Shown in pieces: positions 3,620 to 13,748 of a DNA stretch of 59,965 bases. Within the stretch, counting starts at the first letter, position 1. The number at the start of each line of letters is the position of its first letter. The stretch comes from Fimbriimonas sp. GTDB taxonomy: Bacteria > Armatimonadota > Fimbriimonadia > Fimbriimonadales > Fimbriimonadaceae. The translations under genes and the position numbers were made by a program. Location of the stretch: the NCBI GenBank assembly GCA_029866005.1, contig JARXAE010000027.1, positions 64,906-124,870 of the forward strand, in the 5' to 3' direction. The notes beneath the pieces were generated by a model. It had not been told where the DNA came from. It made no database searches and was given only the letters and a program-made list of their open reading frames with translations.

Positions 3620-5299
3620 TCAGACTATGCCTTTATTCCGGCGTGTTCCAAAAGACTTGTCTCGACTTTTTGCCTCGTCAGTACGCCGAGTCTTAACCGC
3701 CACGCAGTTTTCTGCCTTGACATCCAGCAATTGAACCCAATCCTCAACCTGGTCTGACTTCGGCAAGATATCATTCTCGGCAAACTCTTGTTGAACCGCA
3801 TCAGTGATATCTTGGGACTTTAGACCCGTAGGAACTTCACGGTTTTCCAGCGAGCGACGTATCGCAATTTCCTTCGCTCGGTCGATGATACTTTCAAGGA
3901 TCGCACCTGAAACGAGATCGCTACGATGGAGGATTTCGTGGTTACCGTTTCGCAAGTAGATGGTGGCGATCTCCTCATTGGCGGTTTTTCTCCATACCTC
4001 GTCCATTGCGATCTCAACGAGCGCCCGACGGGCGCACTCTGGTTCATTGTCATTGGCGGCAAGAACTTCGGGGTCGAAAGGAAGAGTTGAGGAGAGATAA
4101 ATGTTGAGGATCTGCCGACAGGCATCCTTGTCGGGTCGCTCCACCTTTACTTTTCGGTCGATTCGGCCAGGGCGAAGGATCGCTGGGTCAATGTAGTCCG
4201 GACGGTTGGATGTCAGCATCAGGACCACGTTTTCGAGCTCAACCAGACCGTCTAACTCGGCGCAGAACTGGGGGACAACCGTATTGCTCATCGAGAAATA
4301 GCGACCCGAAGACCTTGTGCGCAGGAGGGATTCGGCCTCGTCCATGAAGACAAACACCAGCAGCCCTTCCTTGGCTCGAGCGCGGGCAGTTGCGAAGATT
4401 TCTCGCACCATCCGCTCCGTTTCGCCGACCCACATGTTGAGGATTTTGGGGCCAGAGATGCTAAGGAAGCACTCCTTCACTTCGCGGCCGAGTCTCTTGC
4501 TGTACTCCTTGGCGAGGTTGTGAGCGGTTGCCTTCCCGAGAAGAGTCTTCCCGCAGCCCGGAGGTCCGTAAAGGAGAATCCCCTTGATCGGCTTCTTGCC
4601 ATACGCCTCAAAGATTTCTGGGTAGAGAAGTGGTTGCTCAATGGTCTCGCGGATGAGTCGGATCGCCTCTTTCTGCCCACCAACTTGCTCCCAGCTAATC
4701 TCGGGGACTTCTTCCACGAAGTAGTCCTTGTTATCCGATTTTTGCAGGAGCTCAACCGCAAAGCGCCCAGTGGGGTCGAGTCTGATCCGATCACCCGGCT
4801 GGAGTTCTTGGCCTGTGAGAGCTTCGGCTCGGAAGACAAGTCGGGTGCCTTCGCCCGGTTGGTCCCCTCCGATTTGAATCCGGTTTTCGTCAACAATTTC
4901 GGAGACCTTGGCGATCGAGCCGAGGTCCGCCGAAGGCGCGAATCCGACTATGGCATAGGCCTCGTTCAGCCTCACCCTTGTTCCCAACAGGAGTTGATCT
5001 GGGTCAATCTTTGGATCCCAAGTGACAACGTATTCGCTATCGCCGAGTAAAACGAATGCCAGAGGGCCAACGTCTTTGGTCTCGATCCACTTGAGAAAGA
5101 CACCGATGCGGTTTGCAGGCTGAGTGAGCTTCTCGTAGGCAGCGCGGAACTGGGCAAGTTCTTCCTCACTAGCAATTGCCTCTCGCTCTTCGGCTTCGAT
5201 GGATTGGCGCAGGGCACCGATGTACGCTCGAAGTTTCGGCTGATCCGAAGGAAGTTCGCCTTCGATGAGGGTGAGCATTTCGAGCGATTCGCGAGGCAT
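3620..5299 (-). CDS. ARC/Mpa-type proteasome-associated AAA ATPase homologue
   Basis: This 559-residue protein has the ARC/Mpa layout: an N-terminal coiled coil (about 20-60), tandem OB-like domains (about 65-195) and one AAA domain (about 205-460). Walker A GPPGCGKT is at 245-252, Walker B ends in FVFMDEAESL near 316-325, sensor-1 Asn is in TSNRPD and the arginine fingers are in RPGRIDRK. The pore loop has WVGE. Actinobacterial Mpa/ARC ends in a GQYL-type tail that docks on the 20S proteasome; this one ends RRNKGIV, so the docking motif is missing. No proteasome subunit, Pup or Pup-ligase gene is in the window. It could act as a stand-alone unfoldase or with a UBact-type system elsewhere. 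Confidence 0.88.
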   Translation of the reverse strand: MPRESLEMLTLIEGELPSDQPKLRAYIGALRQSIEAEEREAIASEEELAQFRAAYEKLTQPANRIGVFLKWIETKDVGPLAFVLLGDSEYVVTWDPKIDPDQLLLGTRVRLNEAYAIVGFAPSADLGSIAKVSEIVDENRIQIGGDQPGEGTRLVFRAEALTGQELQPGDRIRLDPTGRFAVELLQKSDNKDYFVEEVPEISWEQVGGQKEAIRLIRETIEQPLLYPEIFEAYGKKPIKGILLYGPPGCGKTLLGKATAHNLAKEYSKRLGREVKECFLSISGPKILNMWVGETERMVREIFATARARAKEGLLVFVFMDEAESLLRTRSSGRYFSMSNTVVPQFCAELDGLVELENVVLMLTSNRPDYIDPAILRPGRIDRKVKVERPDKDACRQILNIYLSSTLPFDPEVLAANDNEPECARRALVEIAMDEVWRKTANEEIATIYLRNGNHEILHRSDLVSGAILESIIDRAKEIAIRRSLENREVPTGLKSQDITDAVQQEFAENDILPKSDQVEDWVQLLDVKAENCVAVKTRRTDEAKSRDKSFGTRRNKGIV

Positions 5300-5325: not shown

Positions 5326-6546
5326 CTATTCAGCGAAGAAGGCAGAAATTACCGCACTGGCGACCGATTCGGCAAGGTCGTCATTTGCTTCGACTTCGGC
5401 GGTAACCGAGCGTTGAAAGCCATCTCGGACGACAGTTGTTTCTATGGTTACAAGCTCTGTGGATCCGGCCTTGCTGACCTTGAGGTTGTCCACTTGGATA
5501 CTGGACTCCGGATGGGCTTTCTCTAAAGCTTTGGCGGTTGCCATCGCGACTGACTCGGCGACAGAGCGCCCCATCTTGAGGGAAGTGCCGACCGCGAGCC
5601 CGTTCTCACTCCGCAACACGACATAGGTCAGGCTGTTTGGGTCCTCGTCTGCTTGGATGGTCTCAACGACGGGAAAATTGGTTAGAGGCGTAACGGGAGT
5701 TGGACTCGGCGCATCAGCTGGGAATGCGATTCCCGATTTCGAGGCAAGGCAGTTTTGGCTCGCCAGGTTCACCAGGTTATCTAGGTTCGCTTGGACATGG
5801 ATGTCGTTTCGGACCTTGGAACGACGTCCGCCGTGGATGCCGACTGAGAAGTTGATCGGGGCTGGAACACCAGGAACGACTAAATCTGTCCCGAGCTTGC
5901 GCAGGCTTTCGACGAGCAAGTCGGCTTCATCCCGATCTCGCAGTGTGCCGATCGCAAACTCATCACCACCGTACCGGACCAGAAGGTCGGTTGAAGAATC
6001 GATTGATCCCTTTAGCGCCTGCACGACGCCTTGTAGGACCTTATCGCCAATAACATGACCGAACTGTTTATTGAAGGCGCCGAACTTGTTAAGATCAATA
6101 AAGATGACCGCAATTTCGTTTGAGTGACGCAATTGTTCCGCACCCCAGTCTCTAAGTGCATCGCTCCATGGTAACTCGGTCATAGGGTCGAATGACTGTC
6201 GAAGCTGACCGAGAAGGGACTTTGCCGATATCACTCCGAAGAACTGACCGTTCTCAACGACAGGAAGGAAGTCTTCTGTCGATTCCTGAATCTGCTTTGC
6301 TGCCTCACGAACACTCGCTCGAAGGTGAATCGCTTCTCCGGCATGGGTGAGGAACGAGGCAAGTTCAGCCTCGTCGGGTGCGCTTTGCAGAGAAGTGGCA
6401 GTTGCAAATCCAACAAGGCGGCGGTTGGGATCCACCACTCCTAGCGCGGGCAATCTGTGACCAGCTAGCAACAGCTTTGCTGTCGAAACGAGATGCTCCG
6501 GTTGCAACCAAACCCTAATGATCGGCAGTCCGCCCGGTTCATTCAT
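5326..6546 (-). CDS. CBS-pair / GGDEF diguanylate cyclase with extra C-terminal domain
   Basis: A 406-residue cytoplasmic signalling protein. Residues 5-115 look like a CBS pair, a nucleotide-sensing module. Residues 120-260 are a GGDEF domain with an intact active-site motif RYGGDEF at 191-197, so synthesis of cyclic di-GMP is likely. The usual inhibitory RxxD site just upstream reads SSTD, so product inhibition may be lost. Residues 300-406 form a further domain rich in Ala, Val and Glu that I do not recognise. The gene is 26 bases upstream of the ARC-like ATPase on the same strand, so the two may be cotranscribed. Confidence 0.88.
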   Translation of the reverse strand: MNEPGGLPIIRVWLQPEHLVSTAKLLLAGHRLPALGVVDPNRRLVGFATATSLQSAPDEAELASFLTHAGEAIHLRASVREAAKQIQESTEDFLPVVENGQFFGVISAKSLLGQLRQSFDPMTELPWSDALRDWGAEQLRHSNEIAVIFIDLNKFGAFNKQFGHVIGDKVLQGVVQALKGSIDSSTDLLVRYGGDEFAIGTLRDRDEADLLVESLRKLGTDLVVPGVPAPINFSVGIHGGRRSKVRNDIHVQANLDNLVNLASQNCLASKSGIAFPADAPSPTPVTPLTNFPVVETIQADEDPNSLTYVVLRSENGLAVGTSLKMGRSVAESVAMATAKALEKAHPESSIQVDNLKVSKAGSTELVTIETTVVRDGFQRSVTAEVEANDDLAESVASAVISAFFAE

Positions 6547-6612: not shown

Positions 6613-7596
6613 TTAGCGAAGAAGTCGGTCAAGGACCAGCTCCACAAATTGGTGATGCGCTTGAGCGACAGAGGGATCAGTGCGGCGCAGGTCAGAAAAT
6701 TTCGCAGCGCGTTGGTAACAGTTTCCGGGGGTATCGCCTAGGAACTGGGCAACGGAGTGCTCGCACAAAGCTGCCGTGCGGATCAAAGTGTAGCAAGCCA
6801 TCTCGTCGGAATTGACAGTTGGGAAAATTGGCTGACAAGCACCCGACGTCTTTATCACTCGGTAGCGCAAATCCCAGTTGGGATTTCCAGAGAAGTAGGC
6901 GTCGAGAATTCCGCAAGCCCGTAGACAGTCGCGAGAATTTGTCCAGATGGTCTGCTCCAGTTTCAGCCGATGGAGGGCGCCAAGGATTCCACGGCCAGTA
7001 CCGCCTAGCCATTTGGCAAGAAGCTGCGAAAGAACAGGGCTGATTGTCATCTGTTCCTGCTTGGCAACGTGGGCAATGAGTTGTAGTCTCTCCTCAAAAT
7101 TGGGTGCTTCGATTCCGTATTTTGCCCATCGCTTACTTTGGGGGATCACGACAAAACCAGATTTCGGTGCTTGGTCGCAGGTGAAACTAAGCATTGTCGG
7201 GCAACCGCCTCGAACGCGACGATCGAGAGCACTTCGGAACATCACCATTCGACGGGGTTTCCCCAGAAGTTCTTGGCAGTCGTCAATGATGAGCGGCTGG
7301 CGAGGGCTCAGGCGAGTGCGAACGTTTAGGTAGTGCTCCGCACTCATAAGAGCAGCGTCTTCACAGTGCGCTTTGGTGGCGGCGAGAATCTCACTTTTCC
7401 CGACTCCGCTGGGACCGCAGATACTGACAAACGATTGGAGTTTCCGGCTGAACAGGAGTCCGGCTTCGATGGCTTCGACGTTGCTGGGCAAGGGTGCTAG
7501 GGTCGAGAAAGACGGCTTCCGGACGCACGAAAACACCTCGCTGAGCGTGCGAGTGTCCTCAAGAAGCTGTTGCCGATTGTCCGAAATGAATGCCAC
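6613..7596 (-). CDS. DnaA/Hda-like AAA+ ATPase
   Basis: A 327-residue AAA+ protein with Walker A GPSGVGKS at 61-68 and Walker B LIIDD at 102-106. The segment GGTGRGILGALHRLKLEQ resembles the DnaA sensor-2 region (R-E-L-E-G-A-L-N-R-L). The C-terminal part (about 260-327) looks like a worn DnaA domain IV, and the DnaA signature for box recognition is not intact. DnaA domain I is absent. It is probably a DnaA paralogue or Hda-like regulator rather than the main initiator. The start is a GTG. A perfect DnaA box lies about 180 bases upstream of its start. Confidence 0.7.
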   Translation of the reverse strand: MAFISDNRQQLLEDTRTLSEVFSCVRKPSFSTLAPLPSNVEAIEAGLLFSRKLQSFVSICGPSGVGKSEILAATKAHCEDAALMSAEHYLNVRTRLSPRQPLIIDDCQELLGKPRRMVMFRSALDRRVRGGCPTMLSFTCDQAPKSGFVVIPQSKRWAKYGIEAPNFEERLQLIAHVAKQEQMTISPVLSQLLAKWLGGTGRGILGALHRLKLEQTIWTNSRDCLRACGILDAYFSGNPNWDLRYRVIKTSGACQPIFPTVNSDEMACYTLIRTAALCEHSVAQFLGDTPGNCYQRAAKFSDLRRTDPSVAQAHHQFVELVLDRLLR

Positions 7597-7795: not shown

Positions 7796-8923
7796 CTAGC
7801 GGTGTTTGATTTTTGTCCAATTCTTCACAAAGTTGAACGCTGGGCTGGTGCGTGTGGTATGGCACGAAAGGCACTTTTTTTCGCCCACTTTTTGGAGTTT
7901 AAACTGCTTCGGTTTGGCTGCGTGATCCGCTGAGGCACCGTGGCAAGACTCGCATCCGACTTCGGCAAATTTCTTTGGTTGCAGAGGTGAATAGCCGCCC
8001 TTGGCTTCAAAGCCGACCGAGTGGCAACTGATACAGTCAGGGTCGTTGTCATGCTTGACCGATTTAAGGGTTTCTATCGCGTGGGAGTGGGCGGACTTGA
8101 AGTGGACCTTGGCGGCGGTGGGGTGGCATTTGGTGCAACTGGATGACCCGGCGAAACGACCCTTGTCGGTGCGGAGAACTTTCTCCGCAAGTCGCTCTGC
8201 ATTCAGACGGTTAAGATAGCTGTTGTAGGCCCTGGTCGCTTGTGCGTCATCAGCCACTCGAGGCTCGAGGGGTATGGCTCGCGACTCTTTCAGCTCGCCT
8301 CCGAGGAAGCGAAGCAGAACAAGCCCCCGAAGTGCCTCGCCTGGGGAAACGAGAGTTCCGTTTGCTTGTGCGGCACCTCCAGATGGAAAGATTGTTGTTG
8401 CGTTGAGATCGCGATGATTCGGGTCTCGGGAGATGATGATGTCCGCTTCGGAATGAGGCAGTCCCGGGATGTCGACTGCGATTTTGAGCCCCTTGACGCT
8501 TACTGAATCTCTCTCGGTGGGGTCTAGGGGGATTCCCTTTGCGAGCGACTTCATCGAGAGGATAATTCCTTCTCCAAGTGCACGCTCTGATGGGGTAATC
8601 GCGTAGACGTCAACTCCGAGTTCCCCCATCACTTGAGCGTAAGTTTCGACTTTGAGCTCAGACTGGCGTCCGGGTGCGTTTGTGATGTCACCGGCGTCGA
8701 TCCAGATGGCGCCGTTGTAGCGAGACTTCAGTTCCCTCACCATGTTCGCCATGCGCTTGAGTCCTCCCGTCATAGGTTTTGTGCAACCGCAGGGAGCCAA
8801 ACTTCCCCTCGCCCCGCCCGTTACAATCACATAAGTGCTTTCTTCGGACGGCTTACTCATCCCGAAGCCAAGCAGGGAAAGGCACATGAGGGGAAGGAGC
8901 CCTTTCTTGCTCAGGCGAATCAT
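7796..8923 (-). CDS. Secreted tetraheme cytochrome c with metallophosphatase-like N-domain
   Basis: A 375-residue exported protein with a signal peptide (residues 1-22). Residues 30-140 resemble the N-terminal part of 5'-nucleotidase-type metallophosphatases, with GSLAPCGCTKPMTGGLKR and WIDAGD. The metal-binding Asn-His motif is replaced (ITPSERALGEG), so phosphatase activity is unlikely. The C-terminal third has four heme c motifs: CTKCH 263-267, CISCH 297-301, CESCH 324-328 and CLSCH 351-355. It probably carries electrons in the periplasm in the cytochrome c554-like multiheme style. Its start overlaps the DUF1573 gene by four bases, so the two are translationally coupled. Confidence 0.85.
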   Translation of the reverse strand: MIRLSKKGLLPLMCLSLLGFGMSKPSEESTYVIVTGGARGSLAPCGCTKPMTGGLKRMANMVRELKSRYNGAIWIDAGDITNAPGRQSELKVETYAQVMGELGVDVYAITPSERALGEGIILSMKSLAKGIPLDPTERDSVSVKGLKIAVDIPGLPHSEADIIISRDPNHRDLNATTIFPSGGAAQANGTLVSPGEALRGLVLLRFLGGELKESRAIPLEPRVADDAQATRAYNSYLNRLNAERLAEKVLRTDKGRFAGSSSCTKCHPTAAKVHFKSAHSHAIETLKSVKHDNDPDCISCHSVGFEAKGGYSPLQPKKFAEVGCESCHGASADHAAKPKQFKLQKVGEKKCLSCHTTRTSPAFNFVKNWTKIKHR

Positions 8924-10545
8924 GATTGGGCCGTAATCAGAGGGATGAGGACAATCGGTTGTTTCGGATCGTCCGTCGTGATCCTTATCTGGGTATCAAG
9001 TCGGTGCTCCGGTGCTTTACCGTCGTACTTAGCCGAGATGGTGTATTCCGCTCCGAGCTTTGAGGATGTGACGCTGACGGTAACGTGCTTGGAGTCGGAA
9101 CTCGCACTCAGAATTTTGAAGGGCTTGCCGGTGCGCATGAGGACAAAACTAGATTCTGTTGGTCCGGTTGGAGCGCCAAGGTAGATACGCTCCGGCTGAG
9201 CGACAATTCCCTTCTGGACAAAGAGGTTTGCCCTAACGAGCTTTATGTTCTTGTTGTCGAGCGCGACATAGACGGTGAACATGTTTCGGCCAAAAACTTC
9301 GCTTTCACGAATCGCCGAGAGATCGGCAGTGAGCCGATACCCTTTGACATGCCTGATCTGTCCACCATTCTTCCAGTCTTTGACATCTCCTTCGAAAGGT
9401 TCGTAAAGGACGGTGCTGTTGAGTGGAACCATTTGTGCGCCGAGAACCTTCCACTCGATTGGCTCTGAAGAGTGAACATAAAAGGTCAGCTTTCTTTCCC
9501 CTCCATCAAGAACGAGAGTGTCAGAAGTTGGAAAAACGACTTCGGCTCGAGGCTCCACTCGGATTTTCGCAGAGAACTTTTGGGAGGGTCGCTCCGGGTC
9601 GTTTGAGACGAGAACGACGTTGTGCTCGATCTCTCCGACAAGTTCTTCGGTTCGGTACCGCGCTTTGAGTGCGGTCGATTCACCGGGCTTCAGGGTGGAC
9701 AAGACATCACCAGAAATGCAGGAGCAATCTCCAAAGGCACGCATCTGAAGAGTCGCGTCACCTTTGTTGGTGACGGTCATAAACTCATAGACTGTATCGC
9801 CCTGGAACGCAGGCTTAAAATCGAAGGACTGGGCTGAGACCGCAAGTTGCGGGCGGGTTGGCTTGACGACTGTTTTGGCGAGTGCTGCGACCCGAAGAGC
9901 TTTCGAGAGCCTCAAATTTGCCTCGGCTAGTAAGGCTTCTTGCCGACTGACCAAATTGAGGCTGATCATCTTCCCGTCGACTCTTCCCATCGCCGTGCCT
10001 GGGATTGCAGAAGGCGCGAGTCCAAAGTAACTACCGATACCGAACATGATCTCGTTAAAGACCTCGGCGGGTGATGCATCGGTGAGCTGAGCAGTTCTCG
10101 CAAGTCCTATGACGGCCTCAACTCGCGGCTCTTGGCCACCTGCTCCGTAGAAAACCGCAACTCCCGGAATTTCGCCGGTATCTGCCGACTTTTGGAGTTG
10201 CCTCTCAAAGCTAACCAAGATGTTTGGAATTCCCTTCTTTGCCTCAACGAGCGTTGCCTTGCCATCGAGATTTTTCTGCCATGAGTCGATTGCGAAGGAA
10301 GCGGATTGCTTGTAGGAATCCAGTCGGTCTTTGGGGACGTTAGTGAAGTTAAATCGGTAGCTGACAACTGACTGGGGTAGTAACTTGGCTCGCACGGCTG
10401 CGCCGCCAAAGTCCTTCGCAGTAAGCATCGTCTTCACATCGTGGACAACTTCGTGGAACGCCGAAGAGGCTCCCATCGTGACTGAGTAGTCAACGGCAGG
10501 AGCCTTTTGATTGAGTGCTGCAAAGCAAACGAGTGCAGAGATCAT
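8920..10545 (-). CDS. Secreted DUF1573 protein with degenerate matrixin-like domain
   Basis: A 541-residue protein with a short export signal. Residues 60-190 resemble a matrixin-type metalloprotease core: a strand resembling adIxISF, and the segment NEIMFGIGSYFGLAPS where an HExxGHxxGLxHS zinc motif would be. The zinc ligands are gone, so this domain is probably inactive. Residues about 245-345 form a DUF1573 (Ig-like) domain, with VTNKGDATLQMRAFGDCSC and VLVSNDPERPSQKFSAKI. The rest is beta-rich and unassigned. It lies between prfB (8 bases upstream) and the tetraheme cytochrome (4-base overlap). The matrixin relation is inferred by eye. Confidence 0.72.
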   Translation of the reverse strand: MISALVCFAALNQKAPAVDYSVTMGASSAFHEVVHDVKTMLTAKDFGGAAVRAKLLPQSVVSYRFNFTNVPKDRLDSYKQSASFAIDSWQKNLDGKATLVEAKKGIPNILVSFERQLQKSADTGEIPGVAVFYGAGGQEPRVEAVIGLARTAQLTDASPAEVFNEIMFGIGSYFGLAPSAIPGTAMGRVDGKMISLNLVSRQEALLAEANLRLSKALRVAALAKTVVKPTRPQLAVSAQSFDFKPAFQGDTVYEFMTVTNKGDATLQMRAFGDCSCISGDVLSTLKPGESTALKARYRTEELVGEIEHNVVLVSNDPERPSQKFSAKIRVEPRAEVVFPTSDTLVLDGGERKLTFYVHSSEPIEWKVLGAQMVPLNSTVLYEPFEGDVKDWKNGGQIRHVKGYRLTADLSAIRESEVFGRNMFTVYVALDNKNIKLVRANLFVQKGIVAQPERIYLGAPTGPTESSFVLMRTGKPFKILSASSDSKHVTVSVTSSKLGAEYTISAKYDGKAPEHRLDTQIRITTDDPKQPIVLIPLITAQS

Positions 10546-10553
10546 GCTAATAA

Positions 10554-11670
10554 CTATTCAACATAACTGTCTTCCGAGGGAGCCTTTTTGAGGAACGCCT
10601 CGATAAAACCGTCAATGTCGCCGTCCATTACACCAGTGACGTTTCCGGTCTCGTGACCGGTACGGTGGTCTTTAACCATCGTGTAAGGTTGCATGACGTA
10701 GCTACGAATCTGCCTTCCCCACGCTGCAGGTCCCCCGTCACCTTTGAGATCGCTCAGCTTGTCAGCAGTGTTCGCCTTCTCGAGCTCCATGAGCTTGCCT
10801 AGGAGAACGGACATCGCCGAAGCCCGGTTCTTGTGCTGGCTACGTTCGTTTTGGCAGTTGACCACGATACCAGTTGGAAGGTGCGTGATTCGCACCGCCG
10901 ATTCGGTCTTGTTGACGTGCTGTCCACCCGCGCCTCCAGCCCGAAGGGTTTCCACTTTTAGGTCGTCGGGGTTGATGTTGACTTCGGTCTCATCAATCTC
11001 CGGCAGAACTTCGACCTTGCAGAACGAAGTATGCCGTCTTGATGCTGAGTCAAAAGGTGAAATTCGCACGAGTCGGTGAACCCCCGCTTCACACTTCAGG
11101 TAGCCGTAGGCATTCATCCCGCTAACAAGAATCTGTACCGTTCGGTAGCCGGTCACGTCCCCAGGGTTCTCTGTGATTAAGTCACACTTGAAACCGTGAC
11201 GTTCCGCCCATCGGAGGTACTGGCGATAGAGCATGGATGCCCAGTCGCAAGCTTCCGATCCACCTGCACCAGCATTGACTTCGAGGAGCGCGTTCCGCCC
11301 ATCATATTCGCCGTTCAGGAGGGTCTGAAGTTCGTAATTGTCCAAGTCTTTGCAGAGCTTGATAGCCATCGTGTCAGCCTCTTTTTCAAGGGACTCATCC
11401 GGCTCGAGTTTCAGCATTTCGTAGAGCTCGGCGATATCTCTTTCCGTTTTATCTAGGACCGCAAACGGGGTAAGGATTCCTCGGAGGCGACTCAGTCTTT
11501 GTTGGACTTTGTTCGCTGCCGTAGGATCGTTCCAGAAATCTTGTTGTGCCGACTGCTCTTCGAGCTGGTTTATTTGGGATTTGAGTGAAGGTAGGTCAAA
11601 GATGACCTCCAATAGCGTCCAGGCGCGGGCGAGCCTTAGACAGCGCTTCATGCTGTTCGATAGATAGCAT
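10554..11670 (-). CDS. prfB: Peptide chain release factor 2 (programmed +1 frameshift)
   Basis: RF2 ends translation at UGA and UAA codons. The body has the tripeptide region [14 protein letters not shown] and the catalytic GGQ in [18 protein letters not shown]. The first 24 codons (11670-11599) read [12 protein letters not shown]... to HL and then meet an in-frame TGA at 11598-11596. A +1 slip at CTT-TGA-C joins them to [11 protein letters not shown]... in the next frame, giving about 371 residues. The slip site is preceded by GGAGGT three bases upstream, as in the Escherichia coli prfB autoregulatory site. Opening the second frame at a start near 11651 would give a non-homologous N-terminus, so the recoded form is preferred. 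It is first gene of a likely operon with the DUF1573 and cytochrome genes. Confidence 0.95.
11595..11610 (-). promoter_or_regulatory. prfB programmed frameshift site
   Basis: On the minus strand GGAGGT (11610-11605) is followed by CAT, then CTT TGA C (11601-11595). This is the canonical RF2 recoding arrangement, with an internal Shine-Dalgarno-like element, a slippery CUU and a UGA stop followed by C. Low RF2 slows termination at the UGA and raises frameshifting, so RF2 controls its own synthesis. Confidence 0.95.
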
Positions 11671-11717
11671 CGCCAAACTGTACCTTTTTACCTATCGAAT
11701 TATTGACGCTTTGTGCG

Positions 11718-11723
11718 TATAAT
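11718..11723 (+). promoter_or_regulatory. Candidate -10 element TATAAT
   Basis: A perfect TATAAT lies 33 bases upstream of the ATG at 11757 in the divergent spacer between prfB and the secreted propeller-like gene. The matching -35 is weak: a TTGACG at 11703 is too close to pair with it. Confidence 0.4.
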
Positions 11724-11756
11724 GACGTACGACGGCTCGCCTCCTCGGTGAACATC

Positions 11757-13748
11757 ATGCCCCATTCAAAAATCTTCAAAACGGCCCTTTCGTTGGCAAT
11801 TGTTGCCTCGATTTCTGCTTTCGGTCTTGGTCAAAAGATCGATGGCGTTACCGCTCCTCCCGTAGTTGGTAAATCTCTGAATATTTCTAGTTTTAGCAAC
11901 CTGATCAACAAGACTATTCGGACGAAACCAAGTACACCTCCACACCAGCGCCCGACACCAATAGTCGGAACTCCAAACAACTTGGTGGCGGGTGAGGGAG
12001 TTACGAGTACGAATCCCCGATTAGCCGGATTCTACTTCCCGACGATCGGATACACCGGAGCGGAGCCGCCAGATCCAGATATTGCAGTTAGCGAGTCCCA
12101 CGTTGTCGTGACTGTTAACTCGTCGATTGCGTTCTACTCCAAGACAGGTACCGAACTCTTCCAACAAGATTCCACCGAATTTTTCAAATCGGTCAGCACT
12201 GTCAAATTCCAATTTGACCCGAAGGTGATTTACGATCATGTAGCTAAGCGCTTCACGATCGTGTTCCTTGCGCTTGATCGGGAAGGAAGCAAGTCTGCTC
12301 TCCTCGTTGCGGTTTCCAACAGTGCGAATCCGATGAGCGGATGGAAGCTTTACAGCCTGGACGTTACGCAAACTGAAGGTAGCTCAAGCTTCTGGCTGGA
12401 CTATCCGGGTCTCGGCTTTGACAGCAGGACCATTGCATTCTCCGGAAACATGTTCGGCTTCACTTCAGGTTACAACGGAGTTCAGTTCATTGCATTGGAC
12501 AAGGCAACCTTGTACGGCGGAACCGCGACCATGGTCAAATTCAAGGCACCTGGTGGAACCGCGCAACTCGCCAAGCAGACTGGAGCTCTTGGAGACGTTC
12601 TGTACGCAATGCAAAGCGAAACAACTTCGTCGCTGAGAATTTCAGCCATTACCAACTCGGGTTCAATCGCACTGCAACAGATGACGATCCCAACGCCAAA
12701 CTGGCCCCGAGCTGCCGGTGGAATTGCTGGGCCGGACGGCAAACTGGTTGATACGATCAATGACGGTCGAATCTTCACCGGATCTTGGCGAAACGGTCGC
12801 TTGGTAGGCGGTCACGTCATCGGATCCAACGGAAACGGCTCGCTACCCTGCTCGCGCTGGTACGAAGTCCGAACCAACAACTGGCCACTTAGTCCAGCGA
12901 CTCCTCCAACGTTGTTCCAATCAGGCAACATCGTCGCACCAGCCGGTCACGGTTACACGTTCCCAGCTCTGTCGATTGACAAGAACGGAAGCATCGGAGC
13001 CACGTTCTCGAAGATTGGTGCAACTACTTCCGGCGACGTGATGGTCGCTGGACGAAAGAACTCTGATCCTCCCGGAACGATGGGTGCTCAGATTGTGCTC
13101 GAGAAGGCAAAAGTCAACCAGAACAATAACGATTTCGACCGATGGGGCGATTACTTCGACCTAGAACTTGACCCTGTCGATAACACGTCGATGTGGGCGG
13201 TTGGAATGGGTCCTAACTCCCAAGGCCGATGGCAGACCTACGTTAAATCGTTCATGGTCGCTGTTCCCGATTCCTCTCTCGACAAGACTGTGCCGAGTGC
13301 AGCGTCTGTATCTGGCGGAAGGTTGCAGTTTGGCGATCGAACAAGTCTGTTCTCCGACGATTCGAACAACTTTGTCGTCCGAAGTGAGCCCGTTCGTGGG
13401 CTCGGACAGGTCGCGGGTATCAACGCCTTGTTCACATTGCCATACACAAACATTGACTCGCTCAGGGTGAGTTACTCGGTGGCGGGTGTGGTCGGTGCAA
13501 CGGCAAACGTCTTCGTTCTCAACAACTTGACGGGTGGCTACGAACTGCTTGATTCGTTGGGCTTGTCGGCGACGAGACAGACTCGTTCCGTTGACATCCC
13601 GCTGGCATCTCGAGCGAAGTACATTTCCAGTTCAGGAACCATGACTCTGACGGTGCGAGGAACGCTACCAGTACGATCCGGTCGCATGCCAGGAGCCTTC
13701 TCACTGGCAGTAGATCGAGTCAGCGTTCTAACATCGCAGCTCAACTAA
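11757..13748 (+). CDS. Large secreted protein, probable beta-propeller
   Basis: A 663-residue exported protein starting at the ATG at 11757, which gives a good signal peptide (MPHSKIFKTALSLAIVASI to about residue 26). An in-frame TTG at 11703 would bury the signal, so it is not used. The segment PPDPDIAVSESHVVVTVNSSI and repeated blocks such as FDPKVIYDHVAKRFTIVFL suggest a beta-propeller of the kind found in secreted proteins of environmental bacteria. The C-terminal 130 residues look like a separate beta-sandwich. No catalytic motif was recognised. A strong terminator follows. Confidence 0.72.
   Translation: MPHSKIFKTALSLAIVASISAFGLGQKIDGVTAPPVVGKSLNISSFSNLINKTIRTKPSTPPHQRPTPIVGTPNNLVAGEGVTSTNPRLAGFYFPTIGYTGAEPPDPDIAVSESHVVVTVNSSIAFYSKTGTELFQQDSTEFFKSVSTVKFQFDPKVIYDHVAKRFTIVFLALDREGSKSALLVAVSNSANPMSGWKLYSLDVTQTEGSSSFWLDYPGLGFDSRTIAFSGNMFGFTSGYNGVQFIALDKATLYGGTATMVKFKAPGGTAQLAKQTGALGDVLYAMQSETTSSLRISAITNSGSIALQQMTIPTPNWPRAAGGIAGPDGKLVDTINDGRIFTGSWRNGRLVGGHVIGSNGNGSLPCSRWYEVRTNNWPLSPATPPTLFQSGNIVAPAGHGYTFPALSIDKNGSIGATFSKIGATTSGDVMVAGRKNSDPPGTMGAQIVLEKAKVNQNNNDFDRWGDYFDLELDPVDNTSMWAVGMGPNSQGRWQTYVKSFMVAVPDSSLDKTVPSAASVSGGRLQFGDRTSLFSDDSNNFVVRSEPVRGLGQVAGINALFTLPYTNIDSLRVSYSVAGVVGATANVFVLNNLTGGYELLDSLGLSATRQTRSVDIPLASRAKYISSSGTMTLTVRGTLPVRSGRMPGAFSLAVDRVSVLTSQLN

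Follow-up and report, generated by a model that had tools for sequence, protein, structure and literature searches.

A conserved gene pair of Fimbriimonas sp. with two enzyme folds stripped of their metal ligands may form a thiol-to-heme electron relay

In the DsbA/DsbB and VKOR systems, the thiols of a thioredoxin-type protein are linked to an electron chain, and in the tetraheme cytochrome c554 of Nitrosomonas one five-coordinate heme is accompanied by three bis-histidine hemes. Encoded in a stretch of 59,965 nucleotides from Fimbriimonas sp. (GenBank assembly GCA_029866005.1, contig JARXAE010000027.1, positions 64,906 to 124,870; referred to here as the window) is a pair of proteins, A and B, which we propose, at about an even chance, to be an exported relay carrying electrons between the thiols of a partner and a c554-type tetraheme wire. 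The families of both proteins are already catalogued: UshA-like proteins (CxU) and DUF1573/OS_HP2 proteins (UxC or UGC) have been tabulated as separate selenoprotein families since 2008 (accessible parts of PMC2398784, PMC13188914 and PMC9312934) and correspond to the models NF041198 and NF041425, so that the words ‘unknown kind’ in an earlier note on this DNA do not apply. DUF1573 is merely named in a table row in the accessible part of PMC10434189. A literature search that missed most subscription papers found no study linking the two families or explaining their function, nor the pairing and partner exchange described below.

On the minus strand the gene order is prfB, B, A. The open reading frames of B (541 amino acids) and A (375 amino acids) overlap by four bases, ATGA being common to both, and B starts eight bases after the end of prfB. 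The earlier note had read here a four-CxxCH cytochrome with a metallophosphatase-like domain without its catalytic histidine, overlapping a DUF1573 protein with a matrixin-like domain without zinc ligands, in a row with prfB. All of these features are present. The deciding feature, a cysteine or selenocysteine (Sec) motif of A that stands where the phosphatase would bind metal, had escaped it, as had a C-x-C in B.

Following the presumed signal peptide of A are a domain of ~220 residues and the four CxxCH motifs. In the AlphaFold model of A (pLDDT of 85.7 and pTM of 0.85), residues 26–247 are structurally similar to E. coli UshA (PDB 2ush, Z-score of 19.4 and root mean square deviation (r.m.s.d.) of 2.8) and to SoxB (PDB 2wdc, Z-score of 18.6 and r.m.s.d. 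of 2.7); CD73 is matched likewise, and most UshA, CD73 and SoxB rows of the structure search have Z-scores of 18–19. A profile of 15 N-domain sequences matches nucleotidases (6e-21) and SoxB (3e-13), and no metallophosphatase Pfam match was found for A at E ≤ 0.1. In the alignment, the nucleotidase GNHEF becomes GEKDL in the A-family consensus and GGHT becomes sgsv, so that the metal ligands and the catalytic Asn-His are gone, and the loop after strand 1, the expected seat of the first metal ligands, holds PCGC instead. Model and structure search confirm the N-domain as a predicted UshA/CD73/SoxB-type phosphatase fold without its metal site, sharing the fold of these enzymes but not their metal ligands or catalytic histidine.

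The best NCBIfam match of A is NF041198 (UshA_like_PCGU, ‘UshA-like (seleno)protein’; 8e-41), with 140.1 bits against an equivalog cut-off of 275 bits. Both marks of this family, the PCG[C/U] motif and the C-terminal hemes, are present in A, whereas its length is 375 amino acids against the 519 positions of the model and its motif carries Cys, not Sec. All eight relatives of A that were scanned also score under the cut-off (134–249 bits), which is passed in one of the 237 genomes of the phylum, by a fusion protein described below (L121; L and G numbers denote loci and genomes). A is thus a shortened, below-cut-off variant of NF041198. This model has matches in 229 of the 237 genomes, a number that is not taken as the frequency of A, since ordinary nucleotidases give matches in 8 of 14 control genomes too. 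In the clade of the window (G000, G001, G018, G002, G003, G009 and G010) A has 369–393 amino acids, its phosphatase domain lacking a large part of the second half; in the remaining loci of the same set it has 396–478.

Mature A contains ten cysteines, eight of them in the heme motifs and the other two, C45 and C47, in the PCGC motif. This motif is found in all 54 aligned A sequences, the window included, which had been selected on length and heme motifs without regard to PCGC. In relatives, the second cysteine of PCGC is, by its in-frame UGA codons, a selenocysteine site: UGA stands at the C47 position in L125, L127, L188 (PCGU, ‘Candidatus Tharpella’) and L232. Two genomes of the same phylum (G186 and G187) encode PCGU in this way alongside all four heme motifs. 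A second copy in G187 has SCGU, its counterpart in G186 SCGC. Above cut-off, selA and selB were found in G185, G186 and G187, and neither was found in the genome of the window, G001 or G025; selB matches below cut-off, which occur in all six genomes searched, were not counted.

Three candidates for a wider role of UGA were rejected. Sec in the A of the window itself was rejected, as C45 and C47 have Cys codons and selA is absent from the genome. A TGA in G025 (L040/L160) lies 22 residues past the second cysteine of an intact PCGC in a genome with no selA, and is likelier a frameshift, an error or a pseudogene. A tie between the release factor RF2 (prfB) and UGA or Sec usage was dropped, as the 24 loci with prfB nearby carry PCGC. 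A further TGA-bearing copy, flagged in G185 by the phylum search, is not readable in frame.

The C-terminal part of A matches Cytochrome_C554 (PF13435) with 48.3 bits, above the cut-off of 20.8, and none of 10,000 shuffled versions of the A protein reached four CxxCH motifs. The profile of this domain also matches c554, MccA and NrfB. Besides the heme cysteines and histidines, just three histidines (279, 334 and 374) are invariant among 72 A sequences. Their order, which we take to be that of c554, would give a c554-like set in which heme 2 is open, the ligands of A being assigned here from sequence. The tetraheme module is the same as in c554 (PDB 1bvb and 1ft5), but in A it is fused to a phosphatase-fold thiol domain. 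Absent from the listed structure matches of the whole A model, a list filled by the N-domain, c554 is not thereby argued against. Formation of the holo-cytochrome is plausible because cytochrome c assembly genes are present. In one relative (L085) the fourth motif is one residue wider.

Protein B was likewise modelled with AlphaFold (pLDDT of 87.0 and pTM of 0.69). Its residues 24–213 resemble the matrix metalloproteinase MMP8 (Z-score of 11.9, r.m.s.d. of 3.2 and 152 aligned residues), with MMP1 and others also matching, as the structure search confirms; by sequence profile the resemblance to matrixins is weak (E of 0.24 and above), and Pfam gives no match for this domain. The zinc motif HExxHxxGxxH is missing from all 46 B sequences, the window included. 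Closest to it is HETAHAIG (L054 in G022), in which the third histidine is missing; L085 has HLTGHALG. Both are apparent remnants of the kind that would be expected from a decayed matrixin. The N-domain of B is confirmed, on the model, as a matrixin fold stripped of its zinc ligands. The next domain matches DUF1573 (PF07610) with 43.1 bits, above the cut-off of 26.1, and a C-x-C is present in 46 of 46 B sequences; the 100-bit cut-off of NF041425 (OS_HP2, (seleno)protein) is not reached (41.5 bits). B thus has the DUF1573/OS_HP2 domain with its cysteine pair and adds to it the dead matrixin domain and extra immunoglobulin (Ig)-like domains.

The pair is conserved. Of 61 genomes covering the genus, family and order, that of the window included, 57 have a match to A and 60 a match to B, and among 61 stretches, comprising the window and 60 taken around A matches, 47 hold the two genes adjacent on one strand. 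With start codons assigned by script, 32 of 43 loci, the window among them, show the overlap of exactly four bases. The two genes are not linked in some families of the order (for example, G041 and G043), where B is encoded at another place in the genome. The earlier note had staked its reading on conservation of the pair and on the two folds, and both hold up.

Beyond the phylum, a scan of GTDB genomes was used, from which the best 80 of at least 343 A relatives were taken; A was located in 75 of these loci by an open reading frame and profile step. The 80 belong to Armatimonadota, Planctomycetota (anammox lineages included), Nitrospinota, Nitrospirota, Verrucomicrobiota, Myxococcota and others. 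Upstream of A in 37 of the 75 loci is a DUF1573 protein, which occupies position −1 in 35 and −2 in 2 and has no match at any other position; 34 of the 37 proteins have a C-x-C. Downstream, a thioredoxin-like match occurs at +1 in 16 loci, 7 of these 16 proteins having been search seeds, and once more at +8. According to Pfam, 24 of the 47 upstream neighbours carry DUF1573, almost all of them from outside Armatimonadota (one of the 24 entered from −2), and the 40 downstream neighbours include Thioredoxin (10), DSBA (7) and Thioredoxin_7 (7), counts that overlap. No locus of the 75 contains both a DUF1573 and a thioredoxin-like partner. A tree made by a quick method requires two switches between partner types, one to DsbA/Thioredoxin_4 and one to Thioredoxin_7 proteins, so that the exclusion amounts to about two independent cases, not sixteen.

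Partner and cytochrome are also found in one chain. In L121/L237, DUF1573-type Ig domains, the UshA-like PCGC domain and the tetraheme domain make up a single protein of 802 amino acids. An open reading frame of 1,288 amino acids in L238 (6386–10252, minus strand) comprises a UshA-like domain (CNC), a thioredoxin-like domain (CPHC), a second UshA-like domain (CGC) and four hemes. The same plan is seen in L239 (5179–8868, minus strand), with CDC, CGYC and CRC judged by eye, the thioredoxin-like part having been found by search in L238 only. Among upstream neighbours of A, DUF4159 is matched in 10 of 47. A GCCCCG protein is encoded upstream of A in ten loci of Planctomycetota and Verrucomicrobiota (L181, L187, L189, L192, L199, L208, L211, L212, L217 and L223), seven of which have a thioredoxin-like gene after A.

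The proposed relay draws on this anatomy, on the conservation of the pair, on the exchange of Cys for Sec, on the recurrence of the partners and on the fusions. A dithiol or disulfide of the partner would dock in the old substrate cleft of A and exchange with C45/C47, or with a selenenylsulfide in the Sec forms. Electrons would then cross the four hemes, of which three are probably bis-histidine and heme 2 is probably open, and the hemes would pass them to or from a further partner. In the window, B would be the docking partner, its dead matrixin domain serving as a binding module. Thiol oxidation towards the hemes is slightly favoured as the direction. Of the ‘periplasmic electron-transfer or sensing’ complex suggested by the earlier note, the first part stands, as a presumably exported electron-transfer pair of two dead enzyme folds, and nothing seen supports sensing. 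VKOR is present in all of 31 genomes and DsbD_TM in 30, the genome of the window having both, and a specialised role is therefore likelier than general disulfide formation. Compared with DsbA/DsbB and VKOR, the link made by A would be to a cytochrome c and not to quinone, and it would coexist with VKOR in the same genome.

Several points weigh against the relay. One A relative (L210) has ACNC, in which the C-x-C is retained and the proline and glycine are altered, and another (L164) has only three CxxCH motifs. No selA was found in the genome of L188 despite its PCGU. In 22 of the 75 loci our own search found neither partner, and partner exclusivity as a statistic (Fisher 4e-6) was set aside, the two switches making the test unfair. 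The pair as a stand-in for a missing disulfide-forming system is unsupported, VKOR and DsbD_TM being present. The C-x-C of B would also be able to bind copper. In its accessible part, PMC2398784 omits the UshA-like family from those with Cys-based redox motifs, yet tabulates it with CxU.

A Sox-like system handling sulfur or selenium conjugates is an unlikely alternative, in which a persulfide-type adduct on the C-x-C of B would enter the SoxB-like cleft of A, the PCGC would take the sulfur and the hemes would remove the electrons. Sox intermediates are held on a cysteine of the carrier SoxYZ, according to the accessible part of PMC5336275, and SoxB is matched by the profile given above and by the fold of A, including the SoxB of the disulfide-linked SoxB–SoxYZ complex (PDB 4uwq, Z-score of 17.9). 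However, 5'-nucleotidases match A as well or better, A is without the SoxB metal site, and the thioredoxin partners would be left unexplained. The SoxB family model TIGR04486 is not among the matches of A at E ≤ 0.1; a full-length relative (L067) matches it at 2e-8, with 32.9 bits against 550.

It is also improbable that A serves to reduce small molecules, with NO, peroxide, sulfite or similar being reduced at an open heme 2 while the PCGC and its partner only supply thiol electrons. Three invariant histidines outside the motifs for four hemes, and c554, MccA and NrfB among the profile matches, would suit such a role, but the coordination is a prediction and the neighbourhood offers no clue to a substrate.

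Handling of copper or another metal appears quite unlikely. Here Cu(I) would be bound by the C-x-C of B and the PCGC of A, with the hemes oxidising or reducing the metal. A C-x-C in an Ig fold is known from Cox11, the C-x-C of B also sits in an Ig-like domain, and neither protein has free thiols apart from its cysteine pair; yet Sec at the C47 position and the thioredoxin- and DsbA-type neighbours and fusions suit thiol chemistry better, and no copper family was found among the ten window genes scanned with Pfam and NCBIfam. That the pair acts in the periplasm as a sensor or scaffold with no redox turnover, as the earlier note had allowed and as two dead enzyme folds with several Ig domains might suggest, is very unlikely, given a PCG[C/U] and heme set conserved across several phyla, no linked receptor or kinase among the window neighbours, and a CBS-GGDEF protein encoded two genes from the pair and seen, within the best-80 set, only in Armatimonadota-type loci.

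Beyond the window, the thiol-to-heme relay may stand for a widespread, undescribed group of exported thiol:cytochrome c oxidoreductases, a tentative proposal that we rate somewhat below an even chance. In these proteins the dinuclear metal site of a phosphatase would have become a Cys or Sec site wired to a tetraheme chain, and DUF1573 proteins with C-x-C would be a non-thioredoxin equivalent of DsbA or thioredoxin partners. If so, extracytoplasmic thiols would be coupled to respiratory cytochromes in a further way, besides the quinone-linked DsbB and VKOR. The partnership, its substitution by thioredoxin folds elsewhere and the fusions make the function of both families testable.

Table 1. 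Features of genes A and B and of the adjoining prfB, in positions of the window.
Feature	Position	Strand	Evidence
Gene A, UshA-like PCGC protein with C-terminal tetraheme cytochrome, 375 amino acids, presumed signal peptide	7796..8923	-	
5'-nucleotidase/SoxB-type fold without metal ligands, A residues 26-247	8183..8848	-	AlphaFold model and structure search
PCGC motif (P44-C47), proposed redox site; relatives have Sec (UGA) at C47	8783..8794	-	
Cytochrome c554-type tetraheme domain, A residues 255-375	7799..8161	-	PF13435 2e-12; profile against 1bvb 2e-20
Heme motif 1, C263-H267	8123..8137	-	
Heme motif 2, C297-H301, predicted open-coordination heme (from distal His count)	8021..8035	-	
Heme motif 3, C324-H328	7940..7954	-	
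Heme motif 4, C351-H355	7859..7873	-	
H279, invariant, proposed distal heme ligand	8087..8089	-	54/54 sequences; invariant in 72
H334, invariant, proposed distal heme ligand	7922..7924	-	
H374, invariant, proposed distal heme ligand	7802..7804	-	
ATGA stop/start overlap of B and A	8920..8923	-	
Gene B, presumably exported pseudo-matrixin/DUF1573/Ig protein, 541 amino acids, presumed signal peptide	8920..10545	-	
Matrixin fold without zinc ligands, B residues 24-213	9907..10476	-	Z 11.9 to MMP8 1bzs
DUF1573/HYDIN-PapD-type Ig domain, B residues 229-333	9547..9861	-	PF07610 4e-11; Z 12.2 to 2ys4
C274-x-C276, sole cysteines of mature B	9718..9726	-	
Further Ig-like beta domains, B residues 334-541	8923..9546	-	Secondary structure of model
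prfB with programmed +1 frameshift, upstream neighbour	10554..11670	-	

Near the pair, prfB is found in 24 of the 47 stretches, in 23 of them on the same strand. In the window its true ATG is at 11670 and its slip CTTTGA at 11601, after GGAGG; mechanical calling of open reading frames puts the start at 11651. On the plus strand at 11703–13748 is an apparently exported protein of 681 amino acids with no Pfam or NCBIfam match at E ≤ 0.1. Past the pair, all on the minus strand, are a DnaA/Hda-like AAA protein (6613–7596), a CBS-GGDEF protein (5326–6546) and an Mpa/ARC-type proteasome ATPase (3620–5299; 446.9 bits, below the cut-off of 504.75). Among the 75 loci, relatives of the ATPase lie downstream of A in 6, those of the CBS-GGDEF protein in 7 and those of the AAA protein in 10, with their order mostly kept.

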